From positions 186,001 to 250,000 of the forward strand of contig MPOA01000002.1 of assembly GCA_001899445.1 (NCBI GenBank): DNA of 64,000 bases. Direction: 5' to 3'. Below the pieces are notes generated by a model, which saw nothing but the letters and a program-made list of their open reading frames with translations, had not been told where the DNA came from and ran no database searches. Position 1 is the first letter of the stretch. Every line of letters begins with the position of its first letter. This DNA is from Candidatus Desulfopertinax cowenii. Its GTDB lineage: Bacteria > Bacillota > Desulfotomaculia > Desulfotomaculales > Desulforudaceae. The position numbers and the translations under genes were made by a program. This document shows positions 40,279-43,300 of this stretch, one piece after another.

Positions 40279-40404
40279 CGCTTCCGCGTCGCCACCGGGA
40301 ACGAAAACAGAGGTGTGCTTGTTTTTGGAGAGTGGGAAACCGGACGCCTCACTGGCCGAGAGCCGGAAGCAGGGCTGAAGGGTGCCGGAACGAGGGGGTT
40401 AGCC

Positions 40405-43191
40405 GTGGCCGAAACTTACGTGGTTGTTGACTTGGAGACCACCGGCCTGGACCCGCAGGCCGACGAGATTATTGAGATCGGGATGGTGCGCATCGAGGAC
40501 GGGCGGATCGGGGCGTCTTTTCATACCCTGGTGCGCCCGTCGCGGTCCCTGCCGCCGCGAATAAGGGCCCTGACCGGGCTGGACGACCGCGAACTGGCCG
40601 ACCAGCCTGCTTGGTCCGAGGTGCGGGCGGCGGTGCTGGAATTCCTCGGGGAGGCGCCGGTGGTCGGACATCACGTGAGTTTCGATCTGACCTTCCTGCA
40701 GCGGTACGTTGGGTACCGGGAACCCCGCGCCTACGACACCGCCGACCTGGCGCGGCTGGTATTGCCGGGGCTTCCTTCTTACCGGCTGGACGCCTTGTGC
40801 GACTGGTTGGAGATTCCCTACCGCCCGGAGCACCGGGCGCTGGCGGATGCCCGGGCGGCGGCCGCGCTGTTTATAGCGCTGTGTAAGCGGTTCCAACGGC
40901 TGGAGTGGAACGTCCAGGCCGCCGTCCACCGGATCCTGTCCCAAACCCCCGGTTCGCCGTGGTTTTCGCTGGTGGACCGGCTGGTGCGGTCCGGGACCGG
41001 GGAGCTTTCGGGCACCGCGTGGGAGTCCGCGGGCGACGAGAAGTGGCCCGCCGGGACGGCGTCCGGACCGGAGGCGCGGGACGTTAAATTCGGGCCGGAC
41101 GCGATGGTGAGCGTCCTGGGTCACGACGGCCGGCTGGCCGCCCACCTTCCGGATTTCGAGTACCGGCCGCAGCAGCTGCAGGTGGCGCGGGCGGTAGCCG
41201 ATGCCCTGGACGGGGGAAAATGCCTCCTGGTGGAGGCAGGCACCGGGACCGGCAAATCCCTCGCCTACCTGGTGCCGGCCGCGCTCTGGGCGCTGGCCGG
41301 AGGGCGGCGGGTGGTCGTGTCCACCCACACCGTTAACCTGCAGAACCAGTTAATTGAAAAGGATATTCCTTTCCTGCGCCGGGTTTTGGACGATTTCCTC
41401 AAGGCCGTCCTGTTAAAAGGACGGGGCCATTACCTCTGCCGGCGGCGCTGGAGTGCCGTGATGAACGAGGCGGGTTTCCGGGAAGAGGAAGGTTTCCTTT
41501 ATGCCCGGATCACGGTCTGGCTTGCGGATACCCGCACCGGCGACCGGGCGGAGTTGAACCTGCGGCCGTTGGAACGGGTCTATTGGGACGGGGTGGCCGC
41601 CGGGAACTGGGGCTGCGCCGGCGGGAGATGCCCGTTTCACCATGCCTGTTTTCTGCAGCGCGCCCGGCGGGCGGCCGAGCAGGCCCACCTGGTGATCACT
41701 AATCACTCCCTGTTACTTTCGGACCTGCGCACCGAAAACCGGATCCTGCCGTCCTACGACGCCCTGGTGATCGATGAGGCCCATCACCTGGAGGAGGTGG
41801 CTACTCGACAGCTGGGTACCAATATTTCGGCCGCCGCGTTTGCCCAGTGGGTGGACGGGGTCAACAAGCTGACCGGGAAGCTCGGCGGGGTTTACCCGGA
41901 CGATCGCGGCGCGCTGCTGCGGGACGGGGAGGAGCTGGTGGCGGCGGCCCGGAATTTTTTCGCCCTGGTCGGGAAGCGGATCCGGCAATTGGAAGGACCG
42001 GAGGAGGACTATCCGGCGGTACGATTGGCGCCCGGGGCGGCCAACCTGGACGAAACCCCGGAGTTGTCCGGGCGTTACCAGGAGTTCTCCATTCGGCTGG
42101 ACGGTTACCGGCGGCGCTTCACGCGGGCGGCGGAACGGCTGGTGAACGGGTCCGGTCCGGCCCTCCGGGAAGACCTGAAGGCGGGGCTGGAACTGGAAGT
42201 GGCGGCCGGTGCGCGCCTGGCCGCTGACCTGGAGTTCGTTTTCGAGGCCGGCGACTCGGACTACGTATTCTGGGCCGAGGGCGGCGGTGGCCGGGCCGGG
42301 GACGGTGTGCTGTGCGCGGCGCCGGTCCACGTGGGCGGAATGCTGCATGCAGGTTTGTTCCGTGCTGGCCGGCCGGTGATCCTTACTTCGGCTACCCTGG
42401 CGGTTCGGAACTCACTTTCCTTTTTCGCCGAACGCACCGGCATTTCCCGGGTGCCCCGGGAATATCGGGAGAGCCTGATCGTGGGCTCCCCTTTTGCTTA
42501 CGAACGGCAGGCGCGGCTCTACGTGGTAAACGACCTGCCGGGTCCGGGGGACCGGGGTGGGACGTACCTGGACGGCGTGGTGCATGCCCTGGAGAGAATC
42601 GTCCAGATTACCCGTGGCCGCACCCTCGCCCTATTTACTGCACATAAAGCGTTGCAAGCTGCATATAGAAGACTGAAGCCAGTTTATGCAGATCAAGGGA
42701 TTGAATTACTGGGCCACGGTATTGACGGGGGGCGGGCCCGGCTGCTGCAGTATTTCCGGACCACGCCGCAAGCGGTGCTCTTCGGGGCAGCCAGTTTTTG
42801 GGAAGGAGTGGACCTTCCGGGGGATGCTCTGACCTGCCTGGTGATAGTGAAACTCCCGTTCCAACCTCCCAATCACCCGGTGTTCCAGGCGCGGCGCGAG
42901 GAGATCCGCCGGCAGGGTGGTAACGACTTCACCCAGTTGTCCTTGCCCCAGGCCGTACTCCGGCTGAAACAGGGGTTCGGGCGGTTGATTCGCACCACCA
43001 GGGACCGGGGTATCGTGATCATCCTGGATAGCCGGCTGGTGGAGAAAAAATACGGGGTGGTGTTTCTGGACTCCCTGCCGGTGGTTCCCGCCCACGGCCC
43101 CCTGGCTGAAGCTCTGACGGCCCTAGCCGGCTTCGTCGGGGCGGAAGGTGCCGGTCTGGCGCAAGACACACTTAAGGCACCCTCTCAATAG
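40405..43191 (+). CDS. dinG: DinG-family helicase with N-terminal DnaQ-like exonuclease domain
   Basis: A 928-residue two-domain protein. Residues 1-170 form a DEDDh 3'-5' exonuclease (VVVDLETTGLDPQADEIIEI, VGHHVSFDLTFLQ, HRALADARAAA), with all acidic residues and the His visible. The XPD-like helicase follows: Walker A EAGTGTGKSLAY, four Cys that could hold an Fe-S cluster (HYLCRRRW and WGCAGGRCPFHHACF), VIDEAHHLEE, and motif VI QGFGRLIRTTRDRG. The domain fusion is usual in Firmicutes. GTG 40405, 6 bases after GAGGGGG, is chosen over an open upstream frame. DNA repair or recombination helicase. Confidence 0.92.
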   Translation: MAETYVVVDLETTGLDPQADEIIEIGMVRIEDGRIGASFHTLVRPSRSLPPRIRALTGLDDRELADQPAWSEVRAAVLEFLGEAPVVGHHVSFDLTFLQRYVGYREPRAYDTADLARLVLPGLPSYRLDALCDWLEIPYRPEHRALADARAAAALFIALCKRFQRLEWNVQAAVHRILSQTPGSPWFSLVDRLVRSGTGELSGTAWESAGDEKWPAGTASGPEARDVKFGPDAMVSVLGHDGRLAAHLPDFEYRPQQLQVARAVADALDGGKCLLVEAGTGTGKSLAYLVPAALWALAGGRRVVVSTHTVNLQNQLIEKDIPFLRRVLDDFLKAVLLKGRGHYLCRRRWSAVMNEAGFREEEGFLYARITVWLADTRTGDRAELNLRPLERVYWDGVAAGNWGCAGGRCPFHHACFLQRARRAAEQAHLVITNHSLLLSDLRTENRILPSYDALVIDEAHHLEEVATRQLGTNISAAAFAQWVDGVNKLTGKLGGVYPDDRGALLRDGEELVAAARNFFALVGKRIRQLEGPEEDYPAVRLAPGAANLDETPELSGRYQEFSIRLDGYRRRFTRAAERLVNGSGPALREDLKAGLELEVAAGARLAADLEFVFEAGDSDYVFWAEGGGGRAGDGVLCAAPVHVGGMLHAGLFRAGRPVILTSATLAVRNSLSFFAERTGISRVPREYRESLIVGSPFAYERQARLYVVNDLPGPGDRGGTYLDGVVHALERIVQITRGRTLALFTAHKALQAAYRRLKPVYADQGIELLGHGIDGGRARLLQYFRTTPQAVLFGAASFWEGVDLPGDALTCLVIVKLPFQPPNHPVFQARREEIRRQGGNDFTQLSLPQAVLRLKQGFGRLIRTTRDRGIVIILDSRLVEKKYGVVFLDSLPVVPAHGPLAEALTALAGFVGAEGAGLAQDTLKAPSQ

Positions 43192-43234
43192 AATGTTACG
43201 TGAGATTACCTTGCTACCGGAGGAGGGAAAAGTC

Positions 43235-43300
43235 TTGCGGGTTTATTACTTTCGTCTGCCGGGCTTTCTGAAAGCGATTCTGGCCAGGTTCATCAAGTAG
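43235..43300 (+). CDS. spoVM: stage V sporulation protein M (SpoVM), 21 aa
   Basis: GGAGGAGGG, 7 bases, then TTG 43235 opens a 21-residue frame beginning MRVYYFRLPGFLKAI and ending in TAG. It aligns without gaps to B. subtilis SpoVM (starts MKFYTIKLPKF), sharing Tyr4, Leu8, the helix-breaking Pro9 and Phe11, followed by an amphipathic basic helix. SpoVM inserts in the outer forespore membrane, recognises its curvature and recruits SpoIVA to nucleate the spore coat. The B. subtilis protein has 26 residues; this one lacks the last five. At 22 codons it falls below usual gene-calling limits. It lies 44 bases after dinG. Confidence 0.85.
   Translation: MRVYYFRLPGFLKAILARFIK

Follow-up and report, generated by a model that had tools for sequence, protein, structure and literature searches.

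Our analysis of a 64,000-nucleotide stretch of the Candidatus Desulfopertinax cowenii genome (the window) uncovered a 21-codon ORF located after dinG that is very probably the spoVM gene of this host, coding for a short version of SpoVM, the amphipathic spore-coat anchor, and equipped with a putative mother-cell promoter of its own. It is most aptly classed as a short SpoVM variant that the present curated model does not recognize. SpoVM serves as a model for how a tiny peptide can sense curved membranes and set off the assembly of the spore coat, and has been reported to be missing from many clostridia. The main-text passages of Galperin et al. 2012 that we compared (PMC3533761) record spoVM in all bacilli and in only some clostridia, remark that it is rarely annotated and anticipate that distant versions of it had been missed in some clostridia. 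These passages do not mention a 21-residue dinG-linked form; nor did we find a 21-residue or a dinG-linked SpoVM described in the papers that we searched.

The ORF and the elements around it are collected in Table 1. The TTG start, the strong ribosome-binding site and the 21 residues reported in an earlier note on this DNA were recovered with exactly the same coordinates and product, and the placement of the ORF after dinG agrees with the domain composition of the upstream neighbor. That note had also described the product as shorter than the 26-residue model; this is true, and the length of 21 residues proves to be a lineage-wide property, not the result of a truncation. A simple scan of the window found neither a sigma-70 promoter nor an intrinsic terminator. 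A terminator-like hairpin lies directly 3′ of the ORF in 53 of 100 relatives (versus 6 in shuffled sequence), and the host, whose genome comprises 1.78 Mb in six contigs (99.96% complete), differs from this half of its relatives in that no terminator was found after the gene.

Table 1. Features of the short spoVM locus (positions within the window)
Feature	Coordinates	Strand	Remarks
Short spoVM gene	43235..43300	+	21 codons plus stop; TTG start at 43235, stop codon at 43298-43300; product MRVYYFRLPGFLKAILARFIK; conserved start, length, frame and Pro9; reciprocal profile match
Ribosome-binding site GGAGGAGGG	43219..43227	+	7 nt upstream of the TTG
Putative -10 element AATAGAATG	43187..43195	+	SigE/SigK-type (mother-cell); overlaps the dinG stop codon; from a de novo motif
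Putative -35 element GACACAC	43165..43171	+	Inside the end of dinG; consensus of relatives GGCACAT, with SigK-type C
dinG (exonuclease plus DinG-type helicase)	40315..43191	+	Conserved upstream neighbor; RNase_T, DEAD and Helicase_C_2 domains; plays no part in how SpoVM works

The short spoVM is a real gene under strong codon-level purifying selection. All 31 nearest genomes match the 21-residue query, with a single strong match apiece that nearly always lies a few dozen bases after dinG. A profile built from 29 of these 31 homologs finds a match in 106 of the 113 genomes of the class Desulfotomaculia, and at least 100 of the 113 carry a full-length homolog, with one strong match per genome. 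Among 100 extracted loci from this class, 88 have exactly 21 codons and eight have 22, the position of the start codon is conserved throughout (TTG in 77, ATG in 16 and GTG in 7), and in nearly all relatives a purine-rich stretch stands at the place of the ribosome-binding site. Named carriers include Desulforamulus aeronauticus together with metagenome-assembled genomes of Peptococcaceae, Syntrophomonadaceae and Desulfitobacteriaceae. The pooled dN/dS is 0.13 in frame and rises to 1.3 and 3.1 when the frame is shifted, ten synonymous changes and one non-synonymous change separate the host gene from that of its nearest congener, and column conservation is bounded by the start and stop codons. 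The homologs in relatives and the in-frame dN/dS thus rule out a chance ORF. An alternative in-frame start at 43148, which overlaps dinG and would yield a 50-aa product, is ruled out as well: conservation sets in at the TTG, and all 100 genomes share this start position. As a separate observation, a TTG share of 77% is far above what is usual for start codons, as if selected for low translation.

The NCBIfam model NF033436 (SpoVM_broad) aligns residues 1-12 of the ORF with model positions 1-12 at 14 bits (E 0.037), short of its curated cut-off of 31 bits. Among 29 members of the short-form family, 22 match this model, all below the cut-off (best E 2e-4), and none of the short forms from 60 relatives passes it. 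The cut-off is missed because the model was built on canonical forms, which is a limit of sensitivity rather than a conflict of residues; the view that such a gene is easily overlooked by annotation therefore holds, at least at the naming step. To go beyond this model, we used a canonical-only profile of 30 model-detected SpoVMs, with about 11,900 unrelated start-anchored ORFs as the null. It gives the present ORF 13.9 bits, as against 10.1 for the best null, and places 84 of 149 short forms over that best null. Conversely, a short-form profile confined to Desulfotomaculia scores 18 of 25 canonical SpoVMs above all nulls, and in five genomes (G140, G184, G233, G305 and G352) the short-form and canonical models match the same ORF. 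The gap-free alignment to Bacillus subtilis SpoVM that the earlier note had proposed is reproduced with PDB 2mvh: residues 1-12 align without gaps, and Leu12 is kept in addition to the Tyr4, Leu8, Pro9 and Phe11 already listed there. A better SpoVM elsewhere in the genome, together with a lack of conservation of the ORF in close relatives, had been named as what would speak against the assignment. Neither was found: NF033436 detects nothing genome-wide in the host and each of the 31 nearest genomes has kept the ORF, so that its identity as spoVM is upheld.

One could object that any pairwise similarity is weak at 21 residues (13.4 bits, E 0.57 against 2mvh) and that convergence on an amphipathic helix is easy, in which case the ORF would code for some other conserved membrane peptide, such as a type I toxin-like peptide or a membrane sensor, with a converged sequence. 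We regard this as improbable in view of the reciprocal recognition by the profiles, the presence of one copy per genome, the mother-cell-type promoter motif, the link to SpoIVA and the mutual exclusion with canonical forms considered below, and the position-specific agreement of the short and canonical forms at M1, K/R2, Y4, hydrophobic 6, K/R7, L8, P9, F11 and L12. Pro9, the only completely conserved residue of SpoVM (PMC5607322), is invariant in 100 of 100 Desulfotomaculia sequences, 49 of 49 other short forms and 30 of 30 canonical forms. K/R2, hydrophobic 6, L8, F11, L12 and hydrophobic 15 are largely kept across these three groups, and essentially all Desulfotomaculia have R/K at 2 and hydrophobic residues at 6 and 15; the corresponding K2, I6 and I15 of B. 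subtilis SpoVM are functionally critical (PMC5607322). Counted against the SpoVM reading are the wide margin by which the ORF falls below the curated NCBI cut-off, the absence of the last approximately five canonical residues, the S/G in place of K at position 10 and the differences at positions 13 and 14.

On a helical wheel of residues 10-21, F11, L12, I15, L16, F19 and I20 fall on one half and G10, K13, A14, A17, R18 and K21 on the other, a perfect partition in this ORF, though borderline by permutation (p ~0.05 on a binary scale). The mean hydrophobic moment of the short-form family peaks at 80-100 degrees. The Eisenberg moment of the ORF itself is not significant by permutation (p 0.30) and was dropped as proof of amphipathicity. 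Twelve short SpoVMs outside Desulfotomaculia (L185, L274, L278, L279, L282, L285, L288, L292, L293, L294, L297 and L298) display, besides Pro9, a Pro7 in an IPLP or IPVP context, so that another proline, which was not expected, precedes the kink.

Beyond the claims of the earlier note, the comparison of gene neighborhoods reveals that spoVM has two separate genomic homes. The canonical SpoVMs detected by the model (23-29 aa) are encoded beside rpmB in 30 of 30 cases. The short forms, mostly of 21-23 aa, are instead linked to dinG: in Desulfotomaculia, 87 of 100 loci have it upstream in the same orientation, in 66 of them at a distance of 27-116 nt, and 24 of 49 short forms outside the class are likewise beside dinG. 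Nothing SpoVM-like was found near rpmB in 30 Desulfotomaculia genomes, the host included. A short intergenic ORF with a strong ribosome site could also be a leader peptide, the translation of which regulates downstream genes. This is most improbable, given that amino-acid selection extends over the entire ORF, that the ORF lacks a stretch of regulatory codons, that the terminator-like hairpin follows right after the ORF in more than half of the relatives and that the gene is also found away from dinG, which implies no fixed downstream target.

The SpoVM reading draws further on the distribution of its partner SpoIVA. The host genome codes for SpoIVA, SigE and SigK. Its SpoIVA (836 bits) ends in NDGSGGLICIII, compared with NEGSGGLIAIIL in Bacilli, and keeps the conserved C-terminal GSGG segment, which includes the SpoVM-contact region (PMC5607322). 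SpoIVA occurs in 30 of the 31 nearest genomes, among them the host, and in 91 of 93 short-form genomes versus 159 of 206 others (p = 1e-6, with kinship ignored). Across 299 genomes of the phylum, a full canonical form and a short form are never found together at separate loci, although chance alone would lead one to expect about 15 such cases among the SpoIVA-bearing genomes; such phyletic p-values ignore shared ancestry, which inflates that for exclusion. This mutual exclusion fits a single function that is served by one of two forms. In the same sample, more than 100 SpoIVA-bearing genomes match neither SpoVM profile and might harbor further divergent forms or represent real losses.

A second feature that goes beyond the earlier note is a putative conserved mother-cell promoter with a SigK-type C in its -35 element. 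De novo motif discovery in 83 non-redundant upstream regions recovered GGCACAT-N15-[AC]ATAnnATA, which scores 16.0 bits where shuffled controls reach ~8 and is in most cases located 31-40 nt upstream of the short spoVM start codon, and the pattern occurs once in the window when both strands are scanned. A single -35 base separates SigE promoters (T, read by Gln) from SigK promoters (C, read by Arg), although recognition by the two factors overlaps (Eichenberger et al. 2004, PMC517825). The host factors have the corresponding residues, namely Gln in SigE (ISQSYISR) and Arg in SigK (ISRSYVSR). C stands at -35 position 4 in 66 of 69 short spoVM promoters, and also before the host sigK (GCACATT-N14-CATAACATT), whereas the upstream regions of spoIVA read T (GTATATT-N13-CATATATAT). 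A SigE/SigK promoter scan of 18 host-genome stretches plus the window (424 kb), which holds too few genes to calibrate the promoter class, returned a perfect C-type site before sigK. No clear site was seen in the 110 nt scanned upstream of canonical spoVM. The difference between the C of short spoVM and the T of spoIVA predicts SigK or dual SigE/SigK control and, to the extent that one base can indicate it, suggests that the short spoVM might be switched on after spoIVA, or be under the control of both factors. The spoIVA loci of Desulfotomaculia (L108-L137, e.g., L118) also display a strongly conserved leader with GGGGGGATGCG, which is situated about 50-100 nt upstream of spoIVA and downstream of the promoter-like GTATATT-N13-CATATATAT.

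By analogy with B. subtilis and C. difficile, the short peptide would localize by membrane curvature and bind SpoIVA, and its homology to SpoVM suggests that it anchors SpoIVA to the forespore membrane. Under this proposal, the peptide would be made in the mother cell and its helix (residues ~10-21, past the Pro9 kink) would insert into the convex outer forespore membrane, where the peptide would hold or recruit the SpoIVA ATPase, which would polymerize as the base layer of the coat. The promoter raises an alternative that is compatible with the ORF being SpoVM and competes solely with this early-anchor role: a homolog of SpoVM whose role has shifted, so that it acts late, at the SigK stage, on the coat or cortex and is no longer required when SpoIVA is first recruited. 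The distribution of the -35 C, shared with the host sigK but not with spoIVA, would accord with such a role, as would the finding that in C. difficile the encasement of the forespore by SpoIVA proceeds largely in the absence of SpoVM (PMC5607322). However, the promoter class is read from a single base and SigE and SigK overlap in promoter recognition (PMC517825), and we consider the shifted role a possibility of somewhat less than even weight. In a similarly tentative vein, we propose that there might be two SpoVM lineages, namely a 25-29 aa, rpmB-linked form under SigE and a form of ~21 aa, often dinG-linked, that in Desulfotomaculia would be transcribed by SigK after the assembly of SpoIVA. 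If this were true, the late SigK-driven anchor would help to retain or mature the base of the coat rather than initiate encasement.

The likeness to the 26-residue B. subtilis SpoVM (PDB 2mvh; NF033436) extends to the N-terminal core M-[KR]-x-Y-x-h-[KR]-L-P-x-F-L with its invariant Pro9, the net charge of +5, a second half that is probably amphipathic, the single copy and the co-occurrence with SpoIVA. The short form differs in having 21 rather than 26 residues, a TTG start and 14 bits against the 31-bit cut-off; in its S/G in place of K10, K/R at 13 and L at 16; and in its location beside dinG instead of rpmB with a putative SigK-type -35 in place of SigE control. The length of about 26 residues, which the short form does not reach, is a descriptive rather than a mechanistic property. 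With the SpoVM of C. difficile (PMC5607322) the short form shares an anaerobic spore-forming host, conserved key residues and co-occurrence with SpoIVA. The C. difficile gene is SigE-dependent, co-transcribed with a gene for a 50-aa product and largely dispensable (PMC5607322), and hence the role might be minor in the present host too; unlike it, the short form is preceded by a conserved promoter-like motif of its own and evolves under strong purifying selection.

An order-wide, single-copy form of 21 residues under strong selection shows that the reported absence of SpoVM from many clostridia is at least in part a failure of detection, and the short-form profile is ready for use in annotating SpoVM. 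With its second genomic home and its putative SigK-type promoter, the case goes beyond a simple missed annotation. Because its promoter carries the SigK-type base, the short spoVM also lends itself to testing, in a natural setting, at what stage SpoVM acts. It also suggests how little of SpoVM suffices, the last five residues being dispensed with in nature. In three genomes (L084, L243 and L252; family f14), the short SpoVM bears a C-terminal tail that brings it to 34, 39 and 28 aa, respectively, indicating that this end of the peptide can be extended.
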